DNA of 64,000 nucleotides from Kaistella faecalis (GTDB taxonomy: Bacteria > Bacteroidota > Bacteroidia > Flavobacteriales > Weeksellaceae): positions 62,001 to 126,000 of the forward strand of contig NZ_CP078067.1 of the NCBI RefSeq assembly GCF_019195395.1, in the 5' to 3' direction. Shown here piece by piece: positions 8,432 through 23,091 of the stretch. A model generated the notes under the pieces. That model was not told where the DNA came from. It ran no database searches and was given only the letters and a program-made list of their open reading frames with translations. Numbering within the stretch: position 1 is the first letter of the stretch; every line of letters begins with the position of its first letter. The position numbers were made by a program, and so were the translations under genes.

Positions 8432-8546
8432 TGATTTATAAAGAAAAAAAATATATCTTAGAGGACAGAAATATGTCTCATGACTTTCAGACCAATCCCT
8501 ACAAAACATGTTGTATTTGTCTGACAAAGTAGGACATATATACAAG
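8432..8546 (+). other. attI-like primary recombination site
   Basis: The 115 bp between the recombinase stump and the first cassette end in ATATATACAAG/TTATCTGC. The G at 8546 is the joint, because cassette 1 starts TTATCTGC and its own attC opens GCAGATAAC. Two direct repeats, AGGACAGAAATA at 8462 and AGGACATATATA at about 8530, resemble integrase-binding repeats of known attI sites. Inference from position and pattern. Confidence 0.65.
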
Positions 8547-8585
8547 TTATCTGCAAGTAAATCGAAACAACCCGAAATTAATAAT

Positions 8586-9032
8586 TTGAAAAATAAATAT
8601 CTTATATTAACATTTTCTTTACCATTTTTAGCGCTATTTTTTTACTTTTTTGTTTTAAATTCTCCTGAAAGACAAATTAAAAAAACTGTTGATAAATATT
8701 GGACTTGTATAGAAAATAATGAATTTAACAATTCACTAGAATTATTTGAGGATGGACAAGTATATTCAGGAGCAATGCATATGTATTTCTACAAACTACG
8801 GAAAAATTACTCAACAATTAAACCCCAAATAACTCCTATAGACAGAATTCAAATTAAGGACACAATAATTTTTGGAACTGAAAAAAAATATGTAAAATAT
8901 GAGTTTAATAATAAGAACGCAGAAATAAAGCCAATTGTTTTAACTTTTATATTTTGGAAAAAAACAGGCTTTGACAAAATTGACAACCCAACCTACCTTA
9001 AAAACTTTTTGGATTGGGATAAAAAACAATAA
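8586..9032 (+). CDS. Cassette 1: membrane-anchored small protein
   Basis: A 148-residue protein of no family I can name. One N-terminal membrane helix (about residues 4-24, LILTFSLPFLALFFYFFVL) is followed by a soluble part beginning RQIKKTVDKYWTCIENNEFN, which resembles the DUF4878/NTF2-like pattern of small envelope proteins. The best start inside the cassette is TTG at 8586. An ATG at 8508 is in frame but lies in the attI region outside the cassette, so it would give a protein fused across the joint. Very AT-rich compared with the core genes. Confidence 0.65.
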   Translation: MKNKYLILTFSLPFLALFFYFFVLNSPERQIKKTVDKYWTCIENNEFNNSLELFEDGQVYSGAMHMYFYKLRKNYSTIKPQITPIDRIQIKDTIIFGTEKKYVKYEFNNKNAEIKPIVLTFIFWKKTGFDKIDNPTYLKNFLDWDKKQ

Positions 9033-9041
9033 AAAATGCCT

Positions 9042-9175
9042 GCAGATAACAAGCTATTTCTATTAGCGGGGTTGAAGTTTACATCATAAAGATTTTCGCA
9101 AATTGGTCATTTTGTTATATCTATAAAAATCAATTATAATAATCCCCGCCAACAGAAATACCCAATCGTTAGCCG
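9042..9175 (+). repeat. attC site of cassette 1 (family A)
   Basis: Opens GCAGATAAC, the reverse complement of cassette 1's left end GTTATCTGC, and closes GTTAGCCG. Arms CTATTTC/GAAATAC and GCGGGG/CCCCGC. The joint is G at 9168. Confidence 0.88.
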
Positions 9176-9594
9176 CAATTGCTCGCCCCCGTTATATGAT
9201 AAATAGGATTAAAATTCAACCTGGAAATGGAAAGAGTTAAGGGACGTAAAATAGGATCTTTTTCGTCAAGCCTTGCAAAGTTGGATTTGCTGAAAGTTAA
9301 CTTTCAAAGCGGAGCCGCTTAAAAGGCTTGCCAAAGTTATAAGAAAAAATTGATAAAGTCAAGTTTTTTATTATGTAACTGACTTAACTCTAAAGTGTTG
9401 CAGGAATTTTAACGCTGAGATTTTATAAAGCTGCGCCTATCATTACGGTCTGATAGGAGACAATTTTCTAAAATCATTTATCCGGATTCCGAAGTCGGCA
9501 ACTGTAAACTGTTTTTGTTATCTTAGCAGAGAACAAGCAACAGCGCACAACAAGTGATAGGCGCCATTGCAAGCAACGGCGCCTATCACCAACC
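9169..9594 (+). other. Cassette 2: non-coding cassette, copy A
   Basis: A whole cassette without an open frame of useful length on either strand. Positions 9174-9594 match 12830-13250 over 421 bp with two substitutions and no indel. It contains a palindrome GAAAGTTAACTTTC, the inverted repeat AAGCGGAGCCGCTT, and a second copy of the attC arm text (GCGCCTATCA). Its left end reads GTTAGCCGC, not the GTTGTGCGC expected from its attC and present in the other copy. A structured RNA or a promoter-carrying cassette is possible. Confidence 0.8.
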
Positions 9595-9602
9595 GTTACA
9601 GG
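9543..9602 (+). repeat. attC site of cassette 2 (short, perfect arms)
   Basis: A 60-bp site: GCGCACAAC, then GTGATAGGCGCC and GGCGCCTATCAC as a perfect 12-bp inverted repeat around a 12-base loop, then GTTACAGG. Unrelated in sequence to families A and B. Confidence 0.88.
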
Positions 9603-9632
9603 CAATTTTAAACAGACACATCACGACAGAAT

Positions 9633-10304
9633 ATGGGATTAGATATGCGACCAATGGGGAAACCCAAACCAGGCTTTGAAAAACGTTTCATTGAAATTTT
9701 TGAAATGGTATCACAGGACAAAATTCCTCAACCAACATTCTTTGACAAGTTGAAAGGAAAAAAAATTGCAACAAAAGAAGATTTGTTGGAAGAGTGGTTT
9801 GCAAATCAAATTCAAACTTACGAGACAATAAAAGCACCAAGAGTTGGACGAGACAAAGAAGCGGACGAATGGATTAGAAACAAATATGACGAACTTGAAG
9901 AAAAACCACCACTTGACCAATTCTTGAAAGATTATGAAGGATATTATGTAATTGAATTGGCAAAAGAACAAGATGGTGTTCCTGTTTATATTGCACTTGG
10001 ACAAGACGAAAATGTATTTCGTGGTGAATTTCTTCGGGACTGCGAAGATATAATCGGAGAAGATTTGGTAAGCGAAGCGTGGAACACAAAAATGGCAAAC
10101 GAAACATTGGACTATGGAAACAGACTAATGGACATAGCAGACAAATTAGCCAAACAACATAACTTAGAATACTTAAAATCACAGCGACTTCCGCCTGACA
10201 CAGACGAAGACACTATTGAAAGCAAATTGCATATTTTGTTTTCCTTAGCGAAATGGCTAATTTTCTACGGTAAAAACGGACACGGATATGAAGCCGATTT
10301 CTAA
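9633..10304 (+). CDS. Cassette 3: uncharacterised acidic protein
   Basis: A 223-residue soluble, charged protein that I do not recognise. It has no signal peptide and no membrane segment. The N-terminus MGLDMRPMGKPKPGFEKRF is Met/Pro/Lys-rich; a middle portion (FLKDYEGYYVIELAKEQDGV, about residues 98-117) has the look of a small alpha/beta domain. The ATG is 38 bp inside the cassette, and the gene ends 10 bp before its attC, so it fills the cassette. It could be an immunity-like or house-keeping accessory protein; nothing in the sequence decides. Confidence 0.7.
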   Translation: MGLDMRPMGKPKPGFEKRFIEIFEMVSQDKIPQPTFFDKLKGKKIATKEDLLEEWFANQIQTYETIKAPRVGRDKEADEWIRNKYDELEEKPPLDQFLKDYEGYYVIELAKEQDGVPVYIALGQDENVFRGEFLRDCEDIIGEDLVSEAWNTKMANETLDYGNRLMDIADKLAKQHNLEYLKSQRLPPDTDEDTIESKLHILFSLAKWLIFYGKNGHGYEADF

Positions 10305-10314
10305 AACAAAAACT

Positions 10315-10511
10315 GCCTGTAACAAGGGCTTGGCGCAATGGCGGTTTAAGGCTATAATTGGAAGTTTCGGCTTTCTATTCCGCAAAAAGCCAATTATATT
10401 AACTTTTTTCTTAAATTTATTCAATTAATTGGCTTTTGCTTACTGTGTCGCTAAATTGAAACTTTTCGCTTTAATTTCCGCCACTGACGCCAAGCCTCAA
10501 AACGTTATGCG
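10315..10511 (+). repeat. attC site of cassette 3 (long type)
   Basis: A 197-bp site opening GCCTGTAAC (matching its cassette's left end GTTACAGGC) and closing GTTATGCG. Terminal arms GGCTTGGCG and CGCCAAGCC pair perfectly, with a further AAGCCAATTA/TAATTGGCTT stem inside. Confidence 0.85.
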
Positions 10512-10536
10512 ACATAATATAAAAACAGATCAGAAA

Positions 10537-11241
10537 ATGAAATTTACTACAACTATTTGCACATTTGTACTTTCCACAACCACTCTACTTGCACAAAATT
10601 CTCAAATCAATAAATCAAATGAAATTGTTGAAAAGTCAATCCAAGCACAAGGCGGAAAAAAATTACTTGAAAATATAAAAACTTTATATACTAAATCTGA
10701 AACGGTGATGGATGGTAGAAATGTTTTTTGGATTACAAAAGAAATGGAACCAAACAAAGGCAGTTTCGAAATTGAATATCAAGGAAGAATTGTTTATAAA
10801 TCTTTTTATGATGGAAAAATCGGTTATGATGTTGTAAATGGTCAGAAAACTGTTGCTGACCAAGAACAATTTAAGGACAAAAATTATCGAAACCAAATTA
10901 TAAATTCTTTGGACTATATTGATACATCTCTTTATACTTTGGAATTTATTGGGGAAGAAAAAGCGAACAATAAAGATTGCTACAAAATCAAAGCAACTTT
11001 AAGTAATGGAAAAGTGACTTATTTGTACTATGACAAAACCTCAAATTTATTAGCAAAATCGGAAGTTGTAAAAAATCCTGAAAAAAATTCATTCTCAACT
11101 GTGCTTTATGACGACTACAAAAAGTTTGGTGATTTGACATATGAAACTAAGCAAACTTTTGTTTCTGAAGATGGTAACCAAGTCGCAAAAATTGTTGATT
11201 TATACTATAATAAAAAGATTTCAGAGAAAGACTTTAAATAA
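10537..11241 (+). CDS. Cassette 4: LolA-like exported protein
   Basis: A 234-residue protein with a signal peptide (MKFTTTICTFVLSTTTLLAQ, residues 1-20). The mature part begins with the helix IVEKSIQAQGGKKLLENIKT, the entry motif of Bacteroidota LolA-like/outer-membrane-lipoprotein-sorting relatives, followed by alternating beta-strands. Known of the fold: a periplasmic half-barrel that binds lipids or lipoprotein acyl chains. Which ligand is bound is unknown. I chose ATG 10537 because it begins the signal peptide; an upstream ATG at 10429 lies inside the preceding attC and is rejected. Confidence 0.75.
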   Translation: MKFTTTICTFVLSTTTLLAQNSQINKSNEIVEKSIQAQGGKKLLENIKTLYTKSETVMDGRNVFWITKEMEPNKGSFEIEYQGRIVYKSFYDGKIGYDVVNGQKTVADQEQFKDKNYRNQIINSLDYIDTSLYTLEFIGEEKANNKDCYKIKATLSNGKVTYLYYDKTSNLLAKSEVVKNPEKNSFSTVLYDDYKKFGDLTYETKQTFVSEDGNQVAKIVDLYYNKKISEKDFK

Positions 11242-11245
11242 TTAC

Positions 11246-11380
11246 GTCGCATAACAAAGTATTTCTATTAGCGGGGTTGAAGTTTACATCATGAAGATTT
11301 TCGTTTGTTGTTCTTTTTGTTATATTTACAAAAAGCAGTTATAATAATCCCCGCCAACAGAAATACCCAAACGTTGTACG
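11246..11380 (+). repeat. attC site of cassette 4 (family A)
   Basis: Opens GTCGCATAAC, exact complement of its cassette's left end GTTATGCGAC at 10504, and closes GTTGTACG with the joint at 11373. Contains GTATTTC/GAAATAC and GCGGGG/CCCCGC. Confidence 0.9.
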
Positions 11381-11400
11381 CAATATTTTCACAACTGCCG

Positions 11401-11973
11401 ATGATTGAATCACTACTCCAAAATATTGAGAACGTAATTAAAGTTTCCGAAGACTTAAAAGCAAGAATTATATCAATATCGAAAGCTGAAATTGTAAAAA
11501 AAGACAAATTCATACATCGTCCAAACAAAGTATGTGATAAAACATATTTCATAAGCTCTGGACTAATCCGAATTTATTATGAAAAAGGAGAAAAAGAAGT
11601 AACAGACAATTTTGCCGCAGAAAACGAGTGGATTACTTCTATTTATAGTTTTATGAAAAATGTTCCTGACAACTGTTACATTCAAACATTAGAAGATTCC
11701 GAGCTTATCGTAATCAATATTTACGAACTCGAAAAATGTTTTGCGGATTTTCCTGAAATGGAAAGATTTGGAAGAATACTTATCTCTAAATATTTTGTTG
11801 AACAATCTGAAAGAATAATTTCCTTACAATTTCATACTGCAAAGGAGAGATACGAATATTTTTCAAAACAATCGGCGAATAAATTAGGTAGAGTTCCTTT
11901 GGGAATGCTTGCAAGCCACTTGGGAATTACACAAGAAACATTGAGCCGAGTAAGAGCCGAAATCACTTTTTGA
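11401..11973 (+). CDS. Cassette 5a: Crp/Fnr-family transcription regulator
   Basis: A 190-residue regulator. Residues about 15-120 form the cyclic-nucleotide-binding-like beta barrel (KTYFISSGLIRIYYEKGEKE, then AAENEWITSIYSFM), and the C-terminus carries the winged helix (RVPLGMLASHLGITQETLSR). There is no Fnr-type Cys cluster. Known of the family: many flavobacterial members bind no cAMP and their effector is unknown. I chose ATG 11401; the longer frame starts inside the attC. It is followed after 54 bp, with no attC between, by a DUF998 membrane protein, so the two share one cassette and probably one transcript. Confidence 0.85.
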   Translation: MIESLLQNIENVIKVSEDLKARIISISKAEIVKKDKFIHRPNKVCDKTYFISSGLIRIYYEKGEKEVTDNFAAENEWITSIYSFMKNVPDNCYIQTLEDSELIVINIYELEKCFADFPEMERFGRILISKYFVEQSERIISLQFHTAKERYEYFSKQSANKLGRVPLGMLASHLGITQETLSRVRAEITF

Positions 11974-12027
11974 TAAACATCAAATTGACTTATTTAATTT
12001 ACCGTTAAATTTGTTTCAAAAAATGAA

Positions 12028-12630
12028 ATGAATAATAAAGGATTTGCATTTTCAGGAATTGCTTCTGCATTTTTGCTTGGGACTACTTACTTTGTAATGG
12101 CAAATATGCGTCCTGAATACAGTTTTAAATATAAAGCAATCAGTGAATTAGGCTCTCTCGATGCTCCTAATTTATGGTTTTGGAATATTTTGGGATATAT
12201 CATTCCCGGACTATTAATTGCAATGTTTTCAATCGGACTTTATAAATATTCTGCCAAAAATAATAGTTCAAAAATCCCTTATTATGGTCTTATTTTAAGT
12301 GGTCTATTTATGACTCTTTCCGGAATTTTCCCCGCTGATATGGAGAACAGAAAATCAACTACAACTATATTGCATATGATTGGGAGTTACGGAAGTTATA
12401 TTTCATTTCTTTTTACGGCATTTACTTATCCCAAAATATGGAAGAAAAATACGAATTGGCAACCTCTTATAAAACCTACACTAATTTGTGTTTGGCTGAC
12501 TATAGTTTTTGGTTCTTGGTATCTCTTTTTTCCAAACATTCCGTCTGTAGGACAAAGAATTGTTTTCCTATTTTATTTTCTATGGATTGTTATATCTGCA
12601 ATAAGATTATACAAAACAAAAACACAATAA
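12028..12630 (+). CDS. Cassette 5b: DUF998 membrane protein
   Basis: A 200-residue integral membrane protein with about six hydrophobic helices. The conserved DUF998 features are visible: ISELGSLDAPN after helix 1 and GIFPADMENRKSTTTILHM in the middle, both usual in this family. Its function is unknown. It shares a cassette with the upstream Crp/Fnr gene, so the regulator may control it or sense its state; that is inference from context only. The stop lies 4 bp before the cassette's attC. AT-rich like its neighbours. Confidence 0.82.
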   Translation: MNNKGFAFSGIASAFLLGTTYFVMANMRPEYSFKYKAISELGSLDAPNLWFWNILGYIIPGLLIAMFSIGLYKYSAKNNSSKIPYYGLILSGLFMTLSGIFPADMENRKSTTTILHMIGSYGSYISFLFTAFTYPKIWKKNTNWQPLIKPTLICVWLTIVFGSWYLFFPNIPSVGQRIVFLFYFLWIVISAIRLYKTKTQ

Positions 12631-12634
12631 TACT

Positions 12635-12831
12635 GCGTACAACATATTATTTGCAAAAGGCGGGGTTGAATTCATAATAGAAAAACCCGATGCATTTAGT
12701 CGCAACTTGCTTTTTCATATTACTTTTTTTTGTAATTTGTTAATCTGAAAAAGCAATTTGCTTCGTTCGGTCGAAATTGAACTTTTCGTTCCATTTAGCC
12801 CGCCCTTCGCAAATACTTTTTCCGTTGTGCG
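12635..12831 (+). repeat. attC site of cassette 5 (long type)
   Basis: Opens GCGTACAAC (complement of left end GTTGTACGC at 11373) and closes GTTGTGCG, joint at 12824. Arms ATTTGC/GCAAAT and GGCGGG/CCCGCC; about 197 bp, similar in length to the site at 10315. Confidence 0.85.
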
Positions 12832-13250
12832 CAATTGCTCGCCCCCGTTATCTGATAAATAGGATTAAAATTCAACCTGGAAATGGAAAGAGTTAAGGGA
12901 CGTAAAATAGGATCTTTTTCGTCAAGCCTTGCAAAGTTGGATTTGCTGAAAGTTTACTTTCAAAGCGGAGCCGCTTAAAAGGCTTGCCAAAGTTATAAGA
13001 AAAAATTGATAAAGTCAAGTTTTTTATTATGTAACTGACTTAACTCTAAAGTGTTGCAGGAATTTTAACGCTGAGATTTTATAAAGCTGCGCCTATCATT
13101 ACGGTCTGATAGGAGACAATTTTCTAAAATCATTTATCCGGATTCCGAAGTCGGCAACTGTAAACTGTTTTTGTTATCTTAGCAGAGAACAAGCAACAGC
13201 GCACAACAAGTGATAGGCGCCATTGCAAGCAACGGCGCCTATCACCAACC
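12825..13250 (+). other. Cassette 6: non-coding cassette, copy B
   Basis: The second copy of the gene-less cassette (12830-13250 versus 9174-9594). Here the left end GTTGTGCGC is exactly complementary to its own attC opening GCGCACAAC, so this copy keeps the ancestral ends. The two differences between copies are A/C in the CCCCGTTATNTGAT stretch and A/T in the central palindrome. No open frame of note. Confidence 0.82.
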
Positions 13251-13258
13251 ATTGTACG
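13199..13258 (+). repeat. attC site of cassette 6, joint base changed
   Basis: Same 60-bp palindrome as 9543-9602, but the closing core reads ATTGTACG instead of GTTGTACG. The G that integrase normally cleaves after is replaced by A at 13251. Confidence 0.82.
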
Positions 13259-13284
13259 TCATTTTATAAAAACACCGCGAAGAA

Positions 13285-13791
13285 TTGAATATAAAAATTG
13301 ACAAGAGAGAAATTATCTCTTTAAAAGGTTTTGAATTAGGATGGAGATTCGATAAAATTCATAACTCTGAAATTTTAGAAACTGAAAAGAAGGAAATTTT
13401 TCCTTTATCGAAGGACGAATCAAGAAGGTTGAACAAAGTGATTGACTTTTTTGAAATTGAATCAAATAGATTAGGAAAATATATGGAAACTGATTGGTTT
13501 TCTGCAAATGCAGAGAATAACGAAAAAATTGAAAAATTTAAATTAAAATTAGAAAATTATCTAAAACTATTTGACGAAGATTTAATAATATCTTGGGAAA
13601 GAAAAGTAACATTAAAAACTTCTAAAGAAATATTTCTAAAATATTGGACTGACTTTTTGTATCCAAGTTCAGATGATGTTACAATAATTTCTGAAAACAC
13701 AAATTGGATATTATTTTATCACCATGTTGAAGTTGCAAATCTTTGGATAAAAAATAACTTCAATGAAACAAAAATGGAAAAAACAACGTGA
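13285..13791 (+). CDS. Cassette 7: uncharacterised protein
   Basis: A 168-residue soluble, Lys/Glu/Asn-rich protein of no family I recognise, apparently mostly helical, with conserved-looking aromatic positions (FELGWRF, MEITDWF-like, WERKVTL, NTNWILFYHHVEVANLW). No signal peptide or membrane helix. The start is TTG (MNIKIDK), about 33 bp inside the cassette; no ATG is available upstream. It ends 10 bp before the attC. An immunity-type function would fit its size and context but nothing specific shows it. Confidence 0.65.
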   Translation: MNIKIDKREIISLKGFELGWRFDKIHNSEILETEKKEIFPLSKDESRRLNKVIDFFEIESNRLGKYMETDWFSANAENNEKIEKFKLKLENYLKLFDEDLIISWERKVTLKTSKEIFLKYWTDFLYPSSDDVTIISENTNWILFYHHVEVANLWIKNNFNETKMEKTT

Positions 13792-13801
13792 GTAAAAAAA
13801 C

Positions 13802-13936
13802 GCCGTACAACAAAGTATTTCTATTAGCGGGGTTGAGGTTTACATCATGAAGATTTTTGGTAGTTGTTCTTTTTGTTATATTTACACAAACCAGCTATCA
13901 TAATCCCCGCCAACAGAAATCCCCAAACGTTAGCAG
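13802..13936 (+). repeat. attC site of cassette 7 (family A)
   Basis: Opens GCCGTACAAC, complementary to the cassette's left end over GTACAAC, closes GTTAGCAG with the joint at 13929. Family A arms throughout. Confidence 0.88.
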
Positions 13937-13954
13937 CAATATTATCCCAACAAT

Positions 13955-14812
13955 ATGTTTAAAAATTTATTTTCAAGTAAAAAAACTAAAAGTATTTTTC
14001 TAGTTCTACCGGAAATAAACTTTGAAAGCGAAGATGAATATTTTGATATCCTAAAAACTCATTCTGTAAGCAAAGAAACCGCATTAAAATTTGATGAATT
14101 TCGGGAATTAATTTTTGAGGATGAAAAGTTGACTAAAATGTTTGATTATAAAAATCAGGAAAAACATAATAGAATTTTATTGAAAAATGAGAAAAATCTC
14201 ACTTTCAGAAAATTTAAAGAACATACATTTTCTACTATTAATCCTTCAGAGAATGGAATTAATCAACTTGGAGGAATACAACCACCTGAAATTTCTTTTA
14301 TAAATAATTCAAGTGTCAAATTTCAATATTTAGGTTTTATCAGTCCAAGAAACAAATATTTGGATTATTTGACTTCACCATTACACCTTTTTGTTCCAGT
14401 TTACACAGATTTTACAAAAATTTATTTGGACTACAGTAAAGAGAATGTAATTTCAATTCTAGATACAGCTGATGAATTGGAAGAAATAGAATATCTATAC
14501 GAAGAATTAGAAGATAACGATGAAAATGTAATTTACAAAACTTTAAAATTCAATTTCCAGGAATCTGATGAATTAGGGGAAATTGGTCATTCGGGAATTC
14601 CACTATGGGTGCAATATCCTGAAATTCCAAAATGTCCAAAAACTAATGAAACCATGAATTTTATAGTACAATTGAATAGCGGCCCCAAAATTACTAGTTC
14701 TCCTGAAAATTTTCCTGAAGAAAATCTTGAATTCGGCGGTGGAAATGGAAATTTGTATGTTTTTTACTCACCAAAATCTAATATTGCTTGTTATCTTTTT
14801 CAAGGTAGTTAA
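13955..14812 (+). CDS. Cassette 8: DUF1963 (YwqG-like) domain protein
   Basis: A 285-residue soluble protein. The C-terminal part shows the DUF1963/YwqG pattern: LGGIQPPEIS near residue 107, a Pro/Cys segment WVQYPEIPKCPKTNETMNFI near 217-236, then VQLNSG and a Gly-rich GGGNGNLYVFYSPK near 264-277. Known of the family: YwqG-like proteins occur beside toxin systems and some act as immunity proteins, though most are untested. No toxin gene is adjacent. ATG 13955 is 25 bp inside the cassette. Confidence 0.72.
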   Translation: MFKNLFSSKKTKSIFLVLPEINFESEDEYFDILKTHSVSKETALKFDEFRELIFEDEKLTKMFDYKNQEKHNRILLKNEKNLTFRKFKEHTFSTINPSENGINQLGGIQPPEISFINNSSVKFQYLGFISPRNKYLDYLTSPLHLFVPVYTDFTKIYLDYSKENVISILDTADELEEIEYLYEELEDNDENVIYKTLKFNFQESDELGEIGHSGIPLWVQYPEIPKCPKTNETMNFIVQLNSGPKITSSPENFPEENLEFGGGNGNLYVFYSPKSNIACYLFQGS

Positions 14813-14820
14813 AAAATACT

Positions 14821-14954
14821 GCTGCTAACATGGTATTTCTATTAGCGGGGTTGAAGTTTACATCATCAAGATTTTCGCTTATTGTTCATTTTGGTATATT
14901 TACAAAAACCATTTATCATAATCCCCGCCAACAGAAATACCGGCGAGTTATGCG
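14821..14954 (+). repeat. attC site of cassette 8 (family A)
   Basis: Opens GCTGCTAAC, complement of left end GTTAGCAGC at 13929, closes GTTATGCG, joint at 14947. Confidence 0.88.
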
Positions 14955-14977
14955 ACATTTTATAAAGCAACGCTAAA

Positions 14978-15523
14978 TTGAAAATTTCAGAATTAAAACA
15001 GAACAAAACCATTCACAGACCTACTCAAAATTTTGATGAATTTGGACATAGAATTTATCAGGGATTTGAATACGGTTTTAACTTTGACACGCATTCTGAA
15101 GAAGTCTATTCGGTCAGATTCTTTGCGAAGATTATTGATATAATCCCTGTTTTCTTAACTTTCAGATTTTTATTTCACCAAACAGTTTTGTTAAGTATTA
15201 TTTGTGCTATTCCGACAGTTATGATTTTAAATTCAATATTAGAATGGAGAACTGGACAAACCCTCGGAAAGAAAATTTTCAAACTTAAGGTAGTTGATGA
15301 TTTTGGGAATTGTCCAAAGATTATGAAATCGTTAAAACGTAATTTCCTGAGCTTAATTAATCTATTTCCAAGTTTTTATGACATTCAAGATAGAGCTGGT
15401 GTTTGGGGAACCGGAATGCACTTTAACATGCAATTAAATAATAAATTTTGTGAAACCTACGTAATCAAAGACAAAATTTATTTTAAAATTAAAACACTGT
15501 TAGAAAGCAAAAACGTCGCATAA
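14978..15523 (+). CDS. Cassette 9: RDD-family membrane protein
   Basis: A 181-residue membrane protein of the RDD family. The namesake region reads RFFAKIIDIIPVF near residues 48-60, with a second helix about 67-85 and the conserved WRTGQTLGKKIFKLKVVDD near 91-110, then KSLKRNFLSL. Known of the family: some RDD proteins are ion antiporters, most are unassigned. The start is TTG (MKISELK). The TAA stop lies inside the first bases of the attC (GTCGCATAAC), so the gene uses the site for its end. Confidence 0.78.
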   Translation: MKISELKQNKTIHRPTQNFDEFGHRIYQGFEYGFNFDTHSEEVYSVRFFAKIIDIIPVFLTFRFLFHQTVLLSIICAIPTVMILNSILEWRTGQTLGKKIFKLKVVDDFGNCPKIMKSLKRNFLSLINLFPSFYDIQDRAGVWGTGMHFNMQLNNKFCETYVIKDKIYFKIKTLLESKNVA

Positions 15524-15650: not shown

Positions 15651-15671
15651 CAACTTTAAAAAATCGCTCGA

Positions 15672-16145
15672 ATGAAACCAAATCCAGTTTTAATAATTTT
15701 TGCAGTTATTTATAGCATAATTACTGGAGTTTTTATTCTTAATATATACAATGACCAAAGTTCATCTTTAGGATACGTATTAATATACTTTCCTATTTTT
15801 TGGATAATTTCAGGTATAATTCTCTTTCTTCTATTCAAACAAAAAATTGTAAATTTCCTTGGAATTACTGACAAGATTCTTTTCTTTTTTTCAACACCTT
15901 TAGCTTTAATATTATTTTATTTTGTGTATGTACAATTGACAGATGCATAATATATTATTGGTTCCCGTGAATATGATAAAGGAAATCACCGCTATAAAGA
16001 AGTTACTTATGACTATGAAGTAGCTGGACAAAATCAAAGAACGGAATTTTACATTTTAAATGATGGATGGACAAAAGATAGTATTTGGACTTTCTATAAT
16101 AAAGATGGTAGTATAAAAAAAACTGAAGATTACCGGAAAAAATGA
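15672..16145 (+). pseudogene. Cassette 10: membrane protein gene interrupted by an in-frame TAA
   Basis: The first 92 codons (15672-15950) encode three hydrophobic helices and end in TAA. The same frame then stays open for another 64 codons (YIIGSREYDKGNHRYKEVTY onward, ending DYRKK) up to 16145, just before the attC. The downstream part has ordinary protein composition and no start of its own other than ATT codons. The simplest reading is one 158-codon gene split by a single nonsense change. Alternatives are a sequencing error or translation of the short form only. I do not recognise the family. Confidence 0.7.
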
Positions 16146-16161
16146 AATTATAGAGAAAGCT

Positions 16162-16293
16162 GCAGGTAACTCGGTATTTCTACAAGCGGGTATGAAGTTT
16201 TCAATTGAAGATTTTAGCGGTTAATGAAGTTTTTAGCAAGTAGAATGTTTTCGTATTTTTAGCCCGCCTGCAGAAATACCCAACCGTTATGTG
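16162..16293 (+). repeat. attC site of cassette 10 (family B)
   Basis: Opens GCAGGTAAC, complement of left end GTTACCTGC, closes GTTATGTG, joint at 16286. Interior differs from family A: CTACAAGCGGGTATGAAG and TAGCCCGCCTGCAGAAATAC. Confidence 0.88.
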
Positions 16294-16322
16294 CAAGAAC
16301 TTTAAAGACCGAAACTGTAAAG

Positions 16323-16712
16323 ATGACATTTAAAAATTTAGTTAATCATGCAATTGAACTTAAGTATAAAGTTGTCCCGCAAGAAAATTTCAGTAAAGTA
16401 ATCCTTGAAATTAATAACGCAATTGAAATAGAATTATCATTTCCCGATGACAACATTGAATTTTTTTTAAATGATTCTGTAAACATCGATTGGGAATATA
16501 GTATTGTCAACAAATTGAATGGAGAAAAAATTCATAGTGAATGGTTTGACTACTATAAGGGAACTACAGAAATAAAACTTCAGGATATGAAAAAAGATAT
16601 TTGGGAATTTATGGACAACTTTGCAAAGAAAAAATTTAGAATTGTTGAAAAATCTGTTTTTTCTTTATTTGGAAGGAAATTTTTAAAATTTAAAGAATTG
16701 GAATTCGAATAG
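16323..16712 (+). CDS. Cassette 11: uncharacterised small protein
   Basis: A 129-residue soluble protein that I do not recognise. The predicted order is a helix (MTFKNLVNHAIELKYK), beta strands (SKVILEINNAIEIELSF, then FFLNDSVNIDWEYSIV) and C-terminal helices ending KFKELEFE, an alpha+beta layout often seen in single-domain immunity or adaptor proteins. No export signal. ATG 16323 is 36 bp inside the cassette, and the stop is 8 bp before the attC, so the gene fits the cassette exactly. Confidence 0.7.
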   Translation: MTFKNLVNHAIELKYKVVPQENFSKVILEINNAIEIELSFPDDNIEFFLNDSVNIDWEYSIVNKLNGEKIHSEWFDYYKGTTEIKLQDMKKDIWEFMDNFAKKKFRIVEKSVFSLFGRKFLKFKELEFE

Positions 16713-16720
16713 TTGTTCCT

Positions 16721-16854
16721 GCACATAACAAGCTATTTCTATTAGCGGGGTTGAAGTTTACATCATAGAGATTTTCGCAAGTTGTTCTTTTTGTTATATT
16801 TACAAAAACAAGTTATCATAATCCCCGCCAACAGAAATACCCAACCGTTATCTA
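16721..16854 (+). repeat. attC site of cassette 11 (family A)
   Basis: Opens GCACATAAC, complement of left end GTTATGTGC, closes GTTATCTA, joint at 16847. Confidence 0.88.
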
Positions 16855-16879
16855 CAATTTTACAACCATAATTTTTAAA

Positions 16880-17473
16880 ATGAGATTAGCATTTTTTTTG
16901 ACAATTATACTTCTCCTTTCTGGTTGTTCCAAAAAGCAAAATGACGACGGCTCAAAACTATTGGTGCATAACAATTATTTTAGCGTTTCTGAAAATAATA
17001 GAAAATTAGACAGTATTAAAAACAATCTACAATCAGATTCATTGGAAATAATTGAAATACATAAAGACAAAAGATACAACGATGACTATCATATTGGAGC
17101 GATTCATTTTATGATTTCTGACAGTTCTAAATCATACTATTTAATCAATTATCTAGAAAATCCTGTTCTAATGTGTGGAAATTTGACAGCACTTTCTAGA
17201 GAGGATTCAATTAAAATAGTTAAAAAAAATATTTTAAAAATTCAGAAAAGCACTGCAATTAAGACGAATGATATCATTCAAATTTTAAAAAAATACAAAG
17301 CAAATATTGTCAATAATTCACAGATCCCTTTACAAATTACATTCGCTTTAAAAAATGATACGCTTAAAGGAAATGCAATTTATAACATCATAAATTTTAT
17401 GGAAAATAATAAAATGTCGGTGTACGAAATTAGGACAATGAATGAACAGGAACGAGAAAAAATTAGTAAATAA
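16880..17473 (+). CDS. Cassette 12: lipoprotein
   Basis: A 197-residue putative lipoprotein. The signal peptide MRLAFFLTIILLLSG ends in the lipobox LLSGC with the lipid Cys at residue 16, and is followed by SKKQNDDG. A lysine/acidic stretch after the Cys resembles the export signal that sends lipoproteins to the cell surface in Capnocytophaga and Flavobacterium (known there, inferred here). The mature part is helical in its second half. No family recognised. The gene starts 32 bp inside the cassette and ends 5 bp before the attC. Confidence 0.72.
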   Translation: MRLAFFLTIILLLSGCSKKQNDDGSKLLVHNNYFSVSENNRKLDSIKNNLQSDSLEIIEIHKDKRYNDDYHIGAIHFMISDSSKSYYLINYLENPVLMCGNLTALSREDSIKIVKKNILKIQKSTAIKTNDIIQILKKYKANIVNNSQIPLQITFALKNDTLKGNAIYNIINFMENNKMSVYEIRTMNEQEREKISK

Positions 17474-17478
17474 AAACT

Positions 17479-17609
17479 GTAGATAACATGCTATTTCTAC
17501 AAGCGGGTACGAAGTTTTCATCGAAGACTTTAGCGGTTAATTAAGTTTTTAGCAAGTAGAAAGTTTTCGTATTTTTAGCCCACCTGCAGAAATACCCAAC
17601 CGTTGTACG
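17479..17609 (+). repeat. attC site of cassette 12 (family B)
   Basis: Opens GTAGATAAC, complement of left end GTTATCTAC, closes GTTGTACG, joint at 17602. Confidence 0.88.
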
Positions 17610-17627
17610 ACATTTTATAAATCAGCC

Positions 17628-18188
17628 ATGAATAGAATAGTTCCCCTAATTTTCACTTTATTCTTTTTTTTGAGTTGTAAGAAAAATGAAAAAATCCAGA
17701 GAGAATATTCCATTAAGAACACGAATTTTAATTTTCAAAGAAAATTCGCAGAAGAAATTGGTACAATAGAAGACCAAAATAAGGGAATTCAAGTGAGAAA
17801 ACCATATAAGATGACATTAGGTGAATCCTATTTTCCTGATATTAAGAAATATGAATTTGAACAACCATTTGTTTTTTGGAGAGATACAGCAAATTTAAAA
17901 AACACTATTTCTTACTTTTTCACAAAAAAAGATAGCGTAGTTAGAGTTATTGAATATGCCTGGAGTAAACCTAAAGACAATGATTCCATAATTTCTAAAA
18001 TTTACAAGAATAATATCAAACTTATTTCGAAAAAATTAAATCAAAAAGGAAAAATAATTAATGAATCTAAAGATTCTTGGAAGCAGCAAATAATAAGTTG
18101 GGAAAATGACTCAATTTATGTTTGGAGCTATATTTTCAGCAATAAATTACCGCAGAGAACTCGAGTTATAATTCGACAAAAAAAATAA
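17628..18188 (+). CDS. Cassette 13: lipoprotein
   Basis: A 186-residue putative lipoprotein. The signal peptide is MNRIVPLIFTLFFFLS with the lipid Cys at residue 17, followed by KKNEK, again a basic/acidic run after Cys. The mature protein is rich in Lys, Asn and aromatic residues and appears as alternating strands (FEQPFVFWRDTANLKNTISY, then VRVIEYAWSK). I do not recognise the family. It is the only gene in its cassette, starting 25 bp after the joint and stopping 14 bp before the attC. Confidence 0.72.
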   Translation: MNRIVPLIFTLFFFLSCKKNEKIQREYSIKNTNFNFQRKFAEEIGTIEDQNKGIQVRKPYKMTLGESYFPDIKKYEFEQPFVFWRDTANLKNTISYFFTKKDSVVRVIEYAWSKPKDNDSIISKIYKNNIKLISKKLNQKGKIINESKDSWKQQIISWENDSIYVWSYIFSNKLPQRTRVIIRQKK

Positions 18189-18201
18189 ATCTTAAAAAAA
18201 A

Positions 18202-18334
18202 GTCGTACAACAAGGTATTTCTACAAGCGGGTATGAAGTTTTCATCGAAGATTTTAGCGATTAATTAAGTTTTTAGGAAGTAGCAAAGTTTTCGTATTTT
18301 TAGCCCGCCTGCAGAAATACCCAAACGTTAGCTG
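18202..18334 (+). repeat. attC site of cassette 13 (family B)
   Basis: Opens GTCGTACAAC, complement of left end GTTGTACGAC, closes GTTAGCTG, joint at 18327. Confidence 0.88.
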
Positions 18335-18365
18335 CAAGTTTATAAAAAACGTTATCCAAAGGAAA

Positions 18366-18677
18366 ATGCCAGATAAAAACGAAATTGAAAGAAGAAAACA
18401 AATCAAAAAAGAATTGAGAGAAAAAGCAAAACTTGAATTTGAAAATTCGCTTCCAATTTCAAGAGAAAAATTCACTCAGTTATTTGACTTTTTGGATGAA
18501 AAACTTGGTGAATATGATTGTGATGATTCGTTAAAATTAACAAATGAATTTTTGCAAGAATACAAAATAGAAAACATTCAGGAAGTCAAAAATTGGCTTC
18601 AAGAAAATGGAGGTTATTGTGATTGCGAAGTCTTAAATAATGTTGAAGAAATGTTTGACGATGATGCAATCTTATAA
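18366..18677 (+). CDS. Cassette 14a: DUF2695 family protein
   Basis: A 103-residue soluble protein. The C-terminal two thirds match DUF2695: FTQLFDFLDEKLGEYDCDDSL near residues 36-56 and the closing ENGGYCDCEVLNNVEEMF near 80-97, with the CDC pair typical of that family. The N-terminus (IERRKQIKKELREKAKLEFE) is a charged helix. Function unknown. Its stop lies 14 bp past the likely start of the next gene (17-bp overlap), so the two are probably translationally coupled and form a two-gene cassette. Confidence 0.8.
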   Translation: MPDKNEIERRKQIKKELREKAKLEFENSLPISREKFTQLFDFLDEKLGEYDCDDSLKLTNEFLQEYKIENIQEVKNWLQENGGYCDCEVLNNVEEMFDDDAIL

Positions 18678-19134
18678 TTCTGAAAAGATTTTAGTTCGAT
18701 ATTTTAGTGACGTTCTCGACGAAATTGTCGTTGAAACTCTTTGGACAGAAATTATAGATGCTGAAAAAGGACTTTATAAAATTGATAATATTCCTTTTTA
18801 TGGGCCAAAATTTTCTTGTGGTGATATTGTATACGCAGAATATGACAATTATGAAGAACGATTGACTTTCAGAAAAGTTGTTGAACCAAGTGGAAACTCA
18901 ACAATTCAAATAATTCTGATAGACGAAAACCTGGATTCCCAAGATTTGCGTGATGAATTCAAAGATTTAGGGTGTGAAAGCGAAGGGGCGGGAGGAAATT
19001 ATTTTGTTATGGAAATTCCTTTTGAAAAAAATTATAATGAGATATTTATTAAATTAACTGAATTGGAAAATAACGGAACTATTGGATTTGCTGAACCAGT
19101 AATTTCTGACAAACATTATTCTGAAAAATTATAG
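18661..19134 (+). CDS. Cassette 14b: DUF4265 family protein
   Basis: A 157-residue soluble protein matching DUF4265: VVETLWTEIIDAEKGLYKID, then YGPKFSCGDIVYAEYDN, and a C-terminal half with GCESEGAGGNYFVMEIP. Known of the family: small proteins often found with, or fused to, immunity-type domains; no activity is established. I chose the ATG-ATG pair at 18661; a longer frame from 18640 is possible. It overlaps DUF2695 gene 14a by 17 bp, and the pairing suggests a joint function. Confidence 0.78.
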   Translation: MMQSYNSEKILVRYFSDVLDEIVVETLWTEIIDAEKGLYKIDNIPFYGPKFSCGDIVYAEYDNYEERLTFRKVVEPSGNSTIQIILIDENLDSQDLRDEFKDLGCESEGAGGNYFVMEIPFEKNYNEIFIKLTELENNGTIGFAEPVISDKHYSEKL

Positions 19135-19141
19135 AAACACA

Positions 19142-19274
19142 GCAGGTAACAAAGTATTTCTATTAGCGGGTTTGACGTTTACATCATAAAGATTTTTGCT
19201 AATTGTTCTTTTTGTTATATTTACAAAAAGCAATTCTAATAAGCCCGCCAACAGAAATACCCGAACGTTACCTG
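19142..19274 (+). repeat. attC site of cassette 14 (family A, mismatched end)
   Basis: Opens GCAGGTAAC and closes GTTACCTG (joint 19267). The opening should complement this cassette's left end GTTAGCTGC but instead complements the next cassette's left end. Confidence 0.85.
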
Positions 19275-19298
19275 CAATTTTAAAAAGACACAGCACAA

Positions 19299-19925
19299 AT
19301 GAAATATATTCTACCAAAATCGTTAGAGAATTCTTTTACCTGTCCTCACTGTGGAGTTCTAGCAAAACAAGAATGGCAAACAAGAGATATGAAATTTGAC
19401 AACTGGGCACAAAAATCGTTAAATATTTTAGGTTCTGCTACTTGTCAACATTGTAATGAAACTTCAATTTGGATAAAAGACAAGATGTATTTCCCTACAA
19501 CTGGCAGTTCACCATTCCCAAATACTGAAATGCCTCAAAATGTAAAAAACTTATACCTTGAAGCTGCATCAATTAGTAATAAATCACCACGAGGTGCAGC
19601 TGCATTATTACGACTTTCAATTCAAGTTTTATGCAAAGAACTTGGAGAACAAGGAGAAAATATAAACACAGATATAAAGAACCTTGTTAAGAAAGGACTT
19701 CCCCAAATTGTTCAACAATCACTTGATGTTGTTCGTGTAACAGGAAATGATGCTGTTCATCCAGGACAAATAGATACAGATAATCCTGAAACAGTTTCTC
19801 AATTATTCGATTTGATAAATGTAATAATTGAATATATGATTGCATTACCTAATAAAGTAAGTGGAATATATGCAAATTTGCCTTCTAATAAAATCGATGG
19901 AATTAATAAGCGCGATGAAAAATAA
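19299..19925 (+). CDS. Cassette 15: DUF4145 protein with zinc-ribbon
   Basis: A 208-residue soluble protein. Two CxxC pairs, CPHCG near residue 15 and CQHCNE near 49, form a probable zinc ribbon. Residues about 85-185 are a DUF4145 helical domain (AASISNKSPRGAAALLRLSI, then VTGNDAVHPGQI). Known of the domain: DUF4145 occurs alone and fused to restriction or other defence nucleases; its biochemical role is unclear. It may be an accessory of a defence system, but no nuclease is adjacent. The Cys pairs suggest nucleic-acid contact (inference). Confidence 0.82.
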   Translation: MKYILPKSLENSFTCPHCGVLAKQEWQTRDMKFDNWAQKSLNILGSATCQHCNETSIWIKDKMYFPTTGSSPFPNTEMPQNVKNLYLEAASISNKSPRGAAALLRLSIQVLCKELGEQGENINTDIKNLVKKGLPQIVQQSLDVVRVTGNDAVHPGQIDTDNPETVSQLFDLINVIIEYMIALPNKVSGIYANLPSNKIDGINKRDEK

Positions 19926-19930
19926 AAACT

Positions 19931-20064
19931 GCCTATAACAAAGTATTTCTATTAGCGGGGTTGACGTTTACATCATGAAGGTTTTAGCTAATTGCTCCTT
20001 TTGTTATATTTACAAAAAGCAATTATAACAAGTCCCGCCAACAGAAATACCCAAACGTTAGCTG
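19931..20064 (+). repeat. attC site of cassette 15 (family A, mismatched end)
   Basis: Opens GCCTATAAC, which does not complement the cassette's left end GTTACCTGC, and closes GTTAGCTG, joint at 20057. Arms are normal, with a G-T pair in the GCGGGG/GTCCCGC stem. Confidence 0.85.
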
Positions 20065-20102
20065 TAATAGCAGCCAAAATTGTGCTTAAACATAAAAAAT
20101 AA

Positions 20103-20490
20103 ATGAAATTTTTAAATATAATATTTCAAAGTAAATTCTATTTGGTAATTCTGATTATGATTATTTGTTATTTTTTATTTTTTTGCTCCAAATGGATTTA
20201 ATCATACAATTTCTTGGGGAAGATTGAACAAACTAAATCACTTTACAAAGTTATATTTCCCAATTATTCTAATATTTTACTTTTTAGGTTATGGAATTCT
20301 TTCTCTTTTAAGGACTAATACAAATAAAATCTTATCAATAACCCAAATGATATTGATATGTGGAACAATGATATTGATTAAACAAAAAAATGATGAATTT
20401 CTTCTACCCTTTTCGATACTTTCAATTTGTTCATTTTTAGCTAATACTATTTTTAGCTTATACAAAAAAATGACTACAAAAAAAAATTAA
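20103..20490 (+). pseudogene. Cassette 16: small membrane protein gene with a frameshift
   Basis: ATG 20103 opens MKFLNIIFQSKFYLVILIMI and reads through a membrane helix, but the frame stops at 20201. The +1 frame continues APNGFNHTISWGRLNKLNHF and then two further hydrophobic helices to 20490. The switch fits a one-base change in the T run at 20178-20184. Joined, they make one three-helix protein of about 128 residues. A TTG at 20224 would give only the C-terminal 88 residues. Possible causes: a real mutation, slipped-strand phase switching or a sequencing error. Confidence 0.65.
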
Positions 20491-20503
20491 AAAAATTACA
20501 ACT

Positions 20504-20513
20504 ACAGCTAACA
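20504..20513 (+). repeat. attC opening of cassette 16, rest of the site missing
   Basis: ACAGCTAACA complements the cassette's left end GTTAGCTGT, but none of the normal arms follows. The array is broken here by unrelated sequence up to the junction at 20847. Confidence 0.6.
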
Positions 20514-20658: not shown

Positions 20659-20827
20659 TTTCCCTGGGTTTTCCCGCAAATTTGTACTGACCTCAGGGAA
20701 AACCGGAACATTTGGATGGTTTTTAAACTGACTTCATTAAATTAAATAATATCATCATCTCCTCCGTCTTCTGATTTTGAATTGCAATCTTCTTTGTTAC
20801 TGAGGGAATTAACTGTAGATGTGTTGG
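20659..20827 (+). repeat. Imperfect 170-bp repeat, copy 2
   Basis: Aligns with 8001-8174, including ATCTTCTTTGTTACT, GGGAATTAACTGTAGATG and GACTTCATTAAA. It stands directly upstream of the attI-like joint at 20847 and holds no gene. The 20514-20847 interval has nothing else that I can identify. Confidence 0.7.
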
Positions 20828-20836
20828 TTAAATGCG

Positions 20837-20855
20837 TATATTTGGAGTTAGCTGT
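20837..20855 (+). promoter_or_regulatory. attI-like junction with -7 box
   Basis: TATATTTG (20837-20844) is a good -7 box and ends 2 bp before the joint GTTAGCTG (20847). The same text GCGTATATTTGGAGTTA recurs at 26491. A promoter here would start transcription just inside the cassette, 20 bp before the ATG at 20869. Confidence 0.65.
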
Positions 20856-20868
20856 AATATTATAAAAA

Positions 20869-21690
20869 ATGCGGAAACTCTTTACAATTTTATTTTTAGG
20901 AACAATATTTTTATCCTGTTCAAGAGATGAAGAGCCAATTCTTGATGAAACAACAAACCCTTTAATAACAAATATTAAAATTGATTTAAATAAATCAGGT
21001 AATTGGATAAATACGAATGAAATAGATTTTTATTTTGAATATGATCATCAAGAAAAATTAGTAAAAAAAATTGGAGGATTTGTACCCATCTCTAGTTCAT
21101 CGGGATTTAACGGAGCCTTTTCGAAAAATGTTTTTACAACTTTAGTTTATTCAAATCAAAATGTTTTAGTTGAAAATTTTTCGTCTTCAGCAGAGTTTTC
21201 TGTTCTTAAAGAAACCAAGAATTACTCGTTAAATCCGCAAAACCAAATTTTGACAAAGGAGATTCCTTCGGCACACCATTTTCTAAATAAAAAATTAAAC
21301 TTCACTTACGCAGATAATAAGCTTGTAGAAATTATCACTACATTTCCCAATATGCCTTATGATCCGAACGATCCTAATGATTATATCTGGACGTATATTG
21401 AAAAATTTTATTATGATTCTAAAGATAATCTAATAAAGACTGAATTTTTTAATCAGAATAACGGAACAAATGTTGGCGAGAAAATAACCCGAACATTTGA
21501 AAATTATGATTCTTCAATAAATCCAACTAAAAAGTTTTTTTTATTGGATGAGTATTTCTACCGAAGTCTCTCAAAAAATAATTTTAGAAAATATACTGAG
21601 AAGCGTTATAATTATGATGAATTAGTTTCTACAAGTGAAATAATCTGGGGATTTAATTACGATAGTAATGGAAATATTATTGTGAATTAG
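20869..21690 (+). CDS. Cassette 17: lipoprotein
   Basis: A 273-residue putative lipoprotein. The signal peptide ends in IFLSC with the lipid Cys at residue 17, followed by SRDEEP, a run resembling the flavobacterial surface-export signal. The mature part is a series of beta strands with repeated Y/F-Y-D-x-K/N patterns (FYFEYDHQEKLVKK, FYYDSKDNLIKTE, GFNYDSNGNIIVN) like Rhs/YD-type or DUF4595-like envelope proteins. Function unknown. Its stop runs directly into an attC whose opening AAC has been lost. Confidence 0.72.
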   Translation: MRKLFTILFLGTIFLSCSRDEEPILDETTNPLITNIKIDLNKSGNWINTNEIDFYFEYDHQEKLVKKIGGFVPISSSSGFNGAFSKNVFTTLVYSNQNVLVENFSSSAEFSVLKETKNYSLNPQNQILTKEIPSAHHFLNKKLNFTYADNKLVEIITTFPNMPYDPNDPNDYIWTYIEKFYYDSKDNLIKTEFFNQNNGTNVGEKITRTFENYDSSINPTKKFFLLDEYFYRSLSKNNFRKYTEKRYNYDELVSTSEIIWGFNYDSNGNIIVN

Positions 21691-21816
21691 ACAGTGTATT
21701 CTATTGGCGGGATTGAAGTTTACTTTATCAATATTTTCAGCAGCTGTTCCTTTCGTTATACTTACAGAAACCAGTTATCATAATCCCCACCAACAGAAAT
21801 ACCCAAACGTTGTACG
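21690..21816 (+). repeat. attC site of cassette 17 (family A, damaged opening)
   Basis: The opening reads TTAGACAGTGTATTC instead of RYYYAAC, so it cannot pair with the left end GTTAGCTGT. The closing end is normal (GTTGTACG, joint 21809). This cassette is probably fixed in place. Confidence 0.75.
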
Positions 21817-21849
21817 CAATTTTTCGCAAAGCCATCTAACAAATTCTTA

Positions 21850-22365
21850 ATGAGAAAATTCACATTACTACTTATCATATTTTCGTCATTTTCATGTAAT
21901 AAAAAAGACAATCTAGAACCTGTCGTTGTGCAATTTCAAGAATTTAAAAAATCAGACACTTTAGAAGAAAGAAACTATATTGCCGTTTTTGATGATAAAA
22001 CAGAGAAAAAGACGACATTATCAAAATCGGAATTGAAAATTATCAATACGAATTTGGTTGAAGCTGTAAATAAATTCAATAATGAGTTAAAACTTAAGAT
22101 TGAAAAATGGAATAAGGAAAATGAATCTAATAAAAGGAATTTTAATGACGAAAAAATTGACTTAAGATATTATTTCCGCCAATACTCAGTTTTAATAAAT
22201 GAAAATGGAGAAAAAATAATTAATGTATTTTGTTTTTGTGGTTATATGAGCGATTGGAGAGAAGAAAAAATCCATGTAATGGATGGGGGAGATTGCTATT
22301 TAAATTCTAGAATTAATATTTCTAAAAAAATTGTTGAATATTTCGGAACTCATGGACTTGCATAA
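21850..22365 (+). CDS. Cassette 18: lipoprotein
   Basis: A 171-residue putative lipoprotein. The signal peptide MRKFTLLLIIFSSFS precedes the lipid Cys at residue 16, followed by NKKDN. A charged helical middle (VEAVNKFNNELKLKIEKWNK near 75-94) leads to a compact C-terminus with a Cys-rich INVFCFCGYMSDW segment near 129-141 and GGDCYLN. I do not recognise the family, although the C-terminal pattern recurs in small Bacteroidota envelope proteins. It starts 40 bp inside the cassette. Confidence 0.7.
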   Translation: MRKFTLLLIIFSSFSCNKKDNLEPVVVQFQEFKKSDTLEERNYIAVFDDKTEKKTTLSKSELKIINTNLVEAVNKFNNELKLKIEKWNKENESNKRNFNDEKIDLRYYFRQYSVLINENGEKIINVFCFCGYMSDWREEKIHVMDGGDCYLNSRINISKKIVEYFGTHGLA

Positions 22366-22368
22366 TAA

Positions 22369-22500
22369 AACTGCAACAAGGCATTTCTACTAGCGGGGTT
22401 GAAGTTTACATCATAATGATTTTCGCGAGTTGTTCTTTTCGTTATATTTACAAAACAAGTTATAGAAGCCCCGACAAAAGAAATACCCAAACGTTAGCCG
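22369..22500 (+). repeat. attC site of cassette 18 (family A, 4-bp deletion)
   Basis: The opening reads ACTGCAACAAGG; the expected complement of the left end GTTGTACGC would read GCGTACAAC. The loss is consistent with a deletion of four bases (GTAC). Closing GTTAGCCG, joint at 22493. Confidence 0.8.
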
Positions 22501-22517
22501 ATATTAAAAAGAAAAAA

Positions 22518-22868
22518 ATGAAAAAGATTATTTACTTGCTTTCCATATTTTCCCTGGTTGCGCTGTTAACCATAAGTTGCAGTAGAGATGAAGATACCGG
22601 CAACATTTCGACTGTTACTGCGACCGTACATGACAAATATGTAGACTACGCCATTCCACCTGACTTTGAACCGATCAAAGCCATGAAAATAAAAGAGTCG
22701 AATTCCCAGGAATGGACCAAAGTGGTGAGCATAGAAGGATTTGATTATGAAGAAAACTTTGAATATCAACTTAAACTCAGAAAAACTTATACAGCCAATC
22801 CTCCATTAGATTCATATAGTCATAACAGCTATCAACTGCTAGAAATTTTGGCTAAAACACCGAAATAA
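22518..22868 (+). CDS. Cassette 19: DUF4377-like lipoprotein
   Basis: A 116-residue putative lipoprotein: signal peptide ending in TISC with the lipid Cys at residue 21, followed by SRDEDTG. The mature chain fits DUF4377: KAMKIKESNSQEWTKVVSIE near residues 53-72, GFDYEENFEYQLKLRKTYTA, then NPPLDSYSHNSYQLLEIL. Known of the family: small envelope proteins, one branch fused to META/HslJ-type domains; no activity assigned. I chose ATG 22518; the longer frame starts within the upstream attC. It is the last cassette of the main array. Confidence 0.78.
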   Translation: MKKIIYLLSIFSLVALLTISCSRDEDTGNISTVTATVHDKYVDYAIPPDFEPIKAMKIKESNSQEWTKVVSIEGFDYEENFEYQLKLRKTYTANPPLDSYSHNSYQLLEILAKTPK

Positions 22869-22870
22869 AC

Positions 22871-22990
22871 CGCTGGTTCTATAAGCGGGGTTGAAGTTTA
22901 CGGGATGGAGAGTTTTGCTAATTGTTCTTTTCGTTATATTTACAAAACAAGTTATTATAAGTCCCGCCAACAGAAATCCACGGACGTCAC
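22871..22990 (+). repeat. Decayed attC at the array's end (family A)
   Basis: The core GCGGGGTTGAAGTTTAC and GTCCCGCCAACAGAAAT survive, but the opening AAC is lost (CCGCTGGTTC) and the closing core reads GACGTCAC. Base composition rises to core level directly afterwards. Confidence 0.78.
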
Positions 22991-23091
22991 TCCACAGCTC
23001 CTTCGTTCGCAACTCCTGACCGACAGCTGTTCTTTTTCCATCATGGTGGGGCAAATTATTATAAAATCAGACAACCCATTAAAATATCAGG

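Follow-up and report, generated by a model that had tools for sequence, protein, structure and literature searches.

A degenerate chromosomal integron, very probably of a Bacteroidota-specific type with a non-IntI integrase, in Kaistella faecalis

Sedentary chromosomal integrons, e.g., the Vibrio superintegron, hold their cassettes in arrays with a single orientation. The attC sites form hairpins and have AAC and GTT cores, the array is headed by an attI site, and an integrase gene adjoins it. In these integrons, cassettes are exchanged as exact units, and attC sites are homogeneous within a genus. These features are shared by a cassette array in Kaistella faecalis and the arrays related to it. 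The array lies in the 64,000-nucleotide window analyzed here (positions 62001-126000 of contig NZ_CP078067.1, assembly GCF_019195395.1, a single-contig genome of 2.66 Mb), to which coordinates refer unless another source is named. It is integron-like in every respect visible from sequence. The region is very probably a chromosomal integron in a degenerate state and of a type specific to Bacteroidota, in which the integrase belongs not to IntI but to one of two other families of tyrosine recombinases, here termed A and B.

Two other described systems are close. Clusters of attC sites lacking an integrase (CALIN) are defined by at least two attC sites with no integron integrase nearby. XerA-type recombinases act in chromosome dimer resolution, and we know of none linked to cassette arrays. 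The domain specific to IntI is described as necessary for activity in the part of PMC9668308 that cites Messier and Roy (2001), and IntegronFinder recognizes IntI by this domain. According to one survey (PMC8138268), conservation of the insertion is incomplete in the integron-like subgroup of recombinases. A complete Bacteroidetes integron was reported with IntegronFinder 2.0 from Salinibacter ruber (PMC9024848).

Cassettes and attC-type sites

We counted 19 plus-strand cassettes between positions 8547 and 22995 (Table 1), almost every one closed by an attC-like palindrome. An earlier note on this DNA had described about 19 plus-strand units, each of one or more small genes or none, followed by a palindrome. 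The count stands, with two cassettes that lack an open reading frame (ORF) and two that hold two genes. As the note also proposed, most cassette proteins are unknown or fall into families of domains of unknown function (DUF); the exceptions include a cyclic nucleotide (cNMP)-binding regulator and an RDD membrane protein. A covariance model, R1, was trained on 35 sites of the genus (alignment A1), some of them from the window itself. Within the window, it gave 16 matches of 82-156 bits and one of 38.7 bits, the latter to a 200-bp variant, and three further variants were recognized by eye.

The palindromes have the RYYYAAC and GTTRRRY cores of attC sites, and the bottom strand gives the more stable DNA fold at 14 of the 16 window sites, a check that the earlier note had proposed. 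In the inner stem of the 35 aligned sites, two G.T pairs are invariant on the bottom strand, corresponding to A.C mismatches on the top, and the two intervening pairs covary (TA,TA in 24-25 sites; CG,AT in 10). One base in one of the wobbles was fixed by the motif with which the sites had been collected; the partner of that base and the second wobble were free. The same bias is found in a largely independent set, the mostly non-Kaistella sites downstream of family-A integrases: top-strand stem mismatches are A.C in 194 cases and G.T in 70, and 76 sites lean to A.C compared with seven the opposite way. Outside the stem pairing, the sole asymmetry is an unpaired spacer. A bottom-strand stem that is fully paired and carries two invariant wobbles appears to distinguish these sites from those of sedentary chromosomal integrons. 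Nor are they shared with two class 1 integron loci, on which R1 gave zero matches. The loop of roughly 80 nt (e.g., 16770-16830) is conserved within Kaistella well above the needs of pairing (TTGTTATATTTACAAA), and may hide a promoter or a protein site.

The sequence past the G|TT of an integron site is part of the next cassette, and the start of a cassette is therefore expected to pair with its own 3′ end. Across 47 cassettes of the genus, own-cassette complementarity was 4.81 of 6 informative positions, compared with 2.66 between the ends of a single site and 2.89 for shuffled pairs (3.62 at the top of 3000 shuffles). The match extends about 15 nt, with a near-constant A.C (G.T on the bottom strand) at position 11. 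Two cassettes recur in different contexts in relatives: genome G158 has a copy of 10503-11375 at 99.9% identity, and G118 one of 16846-17604 at 99.3%. Identity of either copy ends at the GTT core on each side, and the outer 60 nt are just 20-32% identical. By sequence comparison, the two cassettes and the own-cassette complementarity point to insertion and excision of whole units with breakpoints inside the core site, which is the cassette-precise presence in relatives that the note had sought. Near-identical cassettes in different species imply recent movement. The ORF-less cassettes are present in G158 and G026 in other cassette orders.

Transcription terminators, or repetitive extragenic palindromic (REP) or IS200-like repeats, that fell between small genes by chance would likewise be seen as hairpins 3′ of genes, and a few solo copies do exist elsewhere in the genome. 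Such elements would be expected to show neither own-cassette complementarity nor strand-asymmetric wobble pairs, and the exact exchange of whole cassettes between unrelated flanks already contradicts this explanation, which we regard as extremely unlikely.

In several Kaistella genomes, the left core of attC sites is directly adjoined by an IS91-like element that has a linked tyrosine recombinase of its own (9954-12051 of locus L086 and 9510-10140 of L093; the common end GGTTTAGTTCAAC is found at L064, L066, and L072). The element may use attC as a target or may travel as a cassette.

Integrase families A and B

A search with a family-A protein gave 39 matches in Kaistella; the site model was run around each, and the results were tabulated by hand. 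Family A or B is present in 29 of 36 Kaistella genomes. All 14 assessable family-A genes have a co-oriented array downstream (one at a distance of 7.5 kb), and 18 of 20 assessable family-B genes have a divergent array upstream. Thus, 32 of 34 assessable integrases have an array in the expected place and orientation; five further genes are at contig ends and outside the assessable set. The co-orientation of family A with its array differs from the arrangement in sedentary chromosomal integrons.

Among named genomes, 80 family-A loci were found in Flavobacterium, Lutibacter, Saprospiraceae, Chitinophagaceae, Paludibacter, Daejeonella, and others, and the site-model matches at these loci fall downstream of the integrase. 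A hairpin search independent of the model found 112 sites in 234 kb downstream and 12 in 396 kb upstream, with 12 in reversed control DNA. Of 396 Bacteroidota genomes drawn evenly, 39 (about 10%) have family A, and the Kaistella-trained R1 still matches 28 other genomes of the class. A BLAST search of relatives with one attC had pointed to a site confined to Kaistella and close genera, a result overturned by the covariance model and the family-independent hairpin search. Plasmid NZ_CP041688.1 of the fish-derived Chryseobacterium sp. SNU WT5 carries an intact family-A gene with six sites; in this locus (L266 17025-32413) insertion sequence (IS) elements and a group II intron interrupt the array. 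Both families are sporadic, unlike the conserved housekeeping Xer dimer recombinase, whose site is dif.

Families A and B could be bystanders if the host XerC/XerD mobilized the cassettes at attC-like sites. The genome retains XerD and an XerC-like gene, and in seven Kaistella genomes, most of them carrying sites, neither A nor B was matched at the search threshold. Against this, A and B have a fixed place and direction with respect to the arrays, conserved attI sequences adjoin them, and a decayed A gene heads the array in the window; we find mobilization by host Xer alone very unlikely.

Families A and B are instead the probable integrases, and neither is of the IntI type. The GKGxKDR and HxLRH motifs are 66 residues apart in A and 65 in B, compared with 107 in IntI1 and with 73 and 69 in the genome's own XerD and XerC-like proteins. 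In alignment to IntI4 (2a3v), the region of the IntI-specific insertion has no counterpart in A or B, both of which thus lack the IntI-specific domain. Against TIGR02249 they score 196-208 bits (cut-off 265). The note had proposed a search of this genome and its relatives for IntI-type recombinases; none of 150 genomes of the family (Weeksellaceae) has a match above this cut-off, and the cognates are A and B. The strongest TIGR02249 match in Kaistella (147 bits, in G114, beside an attC) was considered as an intact IntI and rejected; it is the recombinase of an IS91-like element.

In a phylogenetic tree, A is recovered as a single clade (100/100), distinct from both IntI (100/99) and Xer, and A and B are separate from XerC/D, with the deep branching order limited by long branches. 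The best sequence and structure matches of both are XerA-type (NF040815, 4a8e, 5hxy), with NF040815 scores of 208-223 bits around the cut-off of 220. The PGAP label of such proteins, "site-specific tyrosine recombinase/integron integrase," is the name of this broad XerA-type model. A and B differ from XerA-type recombinases, as from IntI, in an extra N-terminal domain, and from the former also in the adjoining attI and arrays. The domain is common to A (L091, L189) and B (L089, L090), spans 75 residues with an RWSxxKKxWHIPD-like motif, and is a candidate replacement for the IntI insertion. A HARP-like domain binding single-stranded DNA was not borne out. Pfam gave only a weak sub-threshold match to DUF5710 and Foldseek matched general tyrosine recombinases (model pTM 0.52), and we therefore make no claim on the identity of the domain.

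These results also bear on whether the region is an ordinary CALIN, i.e., a classical attC cluster produced by a standard IntI since lost or active from another location. The general anatomy (RYYYAAC, GTTRRRY, hairpin, cassettes) is the same, and integrase-less clusters are frequent in other phyla. We consider this very unlikely, given that no genome of the 150 exceeds the TIGR02249 cut-off, that the class 1 loci hold no match to the site model, and that A and B, and not IntI, are the families of the window's remnant and of the genes that adjoin intact arrays.

Head of the array

The array in the window begins with a decayed C-terminal remnant of a family-A gene (Table 1). It is 94-96% identical in DNA to the K. 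soli gene, has an internal deletion of about 80 bp, and has lost the N-terminal three quarters. In most family-A loci, the sequence that follows the gene is conserved and stops exactly at AAGTT, the start of the variable cassettes; a few loci have a diverged sequence in a like layout. We read this conserved sequence between the family-A gene and the first cassette as attI-A. In both families a conserved sequence runs up to the GTT before the variable cassettes, and attI-B of the GCGTATATTTGGAGTT type adjoins family-B genes in relatives. Two relics of attI-B are present in the window, the second at the head of a short array that encodes a SUKH protein. A promoter-like TATATTTG lies within attI-B and could be a driver of the array. 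A 64-bp repeat, 84% identical, is found before the family-A remnant (8121-8184) and before the first attI-B relic (20774-20837), and suggests that integron heads of two types were fused or duplicated.

No intact family-A or family-B gene was matched in the genome of the window (G000) at the search threshold. The remaining recombinases are XerC/XerD-like and three of phage or transposon types. With its integrase lost, the array is therefore probably frozen, and would stay static unless an outside integrase acts. The earlier note had called the array an integrase-less cluster of attC sites. The genome indeed has 19 cassettes and an integrase only as a decayed remnant, which agrees with the definition of a CALIN. 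However, the integrase remnant and attI that head the array, and the intact cognates of another integrase family in relatives, mark it as a probable relic of a Bacteroidota integron lineage and not as an ordinary CALIN of classical integrons. The interval given in the note, 8546-22990, does hold the array, but the feature also takes in the head at 8252-8548 and the short array at 26491-28536.

Isolated or partial attC-like sites were also seen outside the window in the same genome (G000:C1 3398, 225002, 531430, 2624391, and 2646178). A riboswitch suspected near position 24720 had no Rfam match.

Table 1. Integron-related features of the window (all on the plus strand).
Feature	Position	Strand	Remarks
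Decayed C-terminal remnant, family-A tyrosine recombinase	8252-8431	+	PF00589 match 8299-8397; tblastn 86% identity to K. soli gene
attI-A-like site	8432-8548	+	ends at CATATATACAAGTT
Cassette 1	8547-9168	+	attC 9041-9177, R1 156 bits
Cassette 2, no ORF	9169-9595	+	short attC about 9546-9600, by eye; about 98% repeat of cassette 6; recurs in G158, G026
Cassette 3	9596-10504	+	gene 9633-10304; variant attC about 10310-10510, by eye
Cassette 4, LolA-like gene	10505-11373	+	attC 11246-11382; 99.9% copy in G158
Cassette 5, cNMP-binding regulator and DUF998 gene	11374-12824	+	variant attC 12634-12833, 38.7 bits
Cassette 6, no ORF	12825-13251	+	repeat of cassette 2; variant site about 13205-13255, by eye
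Cassette 7, DUF2947-like gene	13252-13929	+	attC 13802-13938
Cassette 8	13930-14947	+	gene 13955-14812; attC 14820-14956; 97% copy in G145
Cassette 9, RDD-family gene	14948-15643	+	attC 15515-15652
Cassette 10	15644-16286	+	gene 15672-15950; attC 16161-16295
Cassette 11	16287-16847	+	gene 16323-16712; attC 16720-16856
Cassette 12	16848-17602	+	gene 16880-17473; attC 17478-17611; 99.3% copy in G118, ends exact
Cassette 13	17603-18327	+	gene 17628-18188; attC 18202-18336
Cassette 14, DUF2695 and DUF4265 genes	18328-19267	+	attC 19141-19276
Cassette 15, DUF4145 gene	19268-20057	+	attC 19930-20066
Cassette 16	20058-20505	+	attC truncated past left core (about 20505), by eye
attI-B relic, GCGTATATTTGGAGTT type	20835-20849	+	matches conserved end of the stretch that separates divergent family-B genes from first cassettes
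Cassette 17	20850-21809	+	gene 20869-21690; attC 21683-21818
Cassette 18	21810-22493	+	gene 21850-22365; attC 22368-22502
Cassette 19, DUF4377 gene	22494-22995	+	attC 22861-22995, right core degenerate
Second attI-B relic, heads short array	26491-26505	+	match to attI-B type
Short-array cassette, SUKH gene	26506-27291	+	attC 27158-27291
Short-array cassette, esterase-like gene	27292-28536	+	attC 28399-28536

Proposed mechanism and its meaning for Bacteroidota

In the mechanism we propose, the integrase would act on the bottom strand of attC folded as a hairpin, the choice of strand being aided by the two invariant G.T wobbles (A.C mismatches on the top strand) and the asymmetric unpaired spacer. 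Cassettes would be excised as circles, and their insertion, either into attI or between two cassettes, would take place at G|TT. By sequence comparison, intact relatives combine this attC type with A or B, and each family has an attI type of its own, A lying co-oriented upstream of the array and B divergent.

Several points weigh against this reading. Integron recombination is deduced from comparison of genomes, the attI assignments come from conservation and position only, and the integrase of the window's own genome is dead. Support for family B as a single clade is less firm (57/92), and for two of its genes in Kaistella no array was detected. The attC stem has no obvious extrahelical bases of the kind found in classical attC, its inner part being fully paired on the bottom strand. 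The region also falls outside integrons in the strict IntI sense, because its integrase is not of the IntI type. We nevertheless think it likely that Bacteroidota harbor a widespread integron lineage, or lineages, of their own, with two non-IntI recombinase families that lack the IntI-specific domain and yet act on folded attC sites in recombination.

IntegronFinder relies on the IntI-specific insertion and is therefore expected to miss the A and B integrases, as standard searches should. We did not find a prior description of the system in open-access papers, which our search covered (subscription papers and preprints were beyond it). Bacteroidota seemed almost free of integrons, yet family A alone is in about 10% of the 396 genomes. 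If our reading is true, surveys that require IntI have overlooked one or more Bacteroidota lineages, and the integron principle is either convergent or older and broader than IntI. The system makes it possible to test whether the IntI-specific domain is needed for recombination of hairpin attC sites, and whether integrons arose repeatedly. The cassettes of the arrays associated with A and B would be an unexamined pool of mobile genes.

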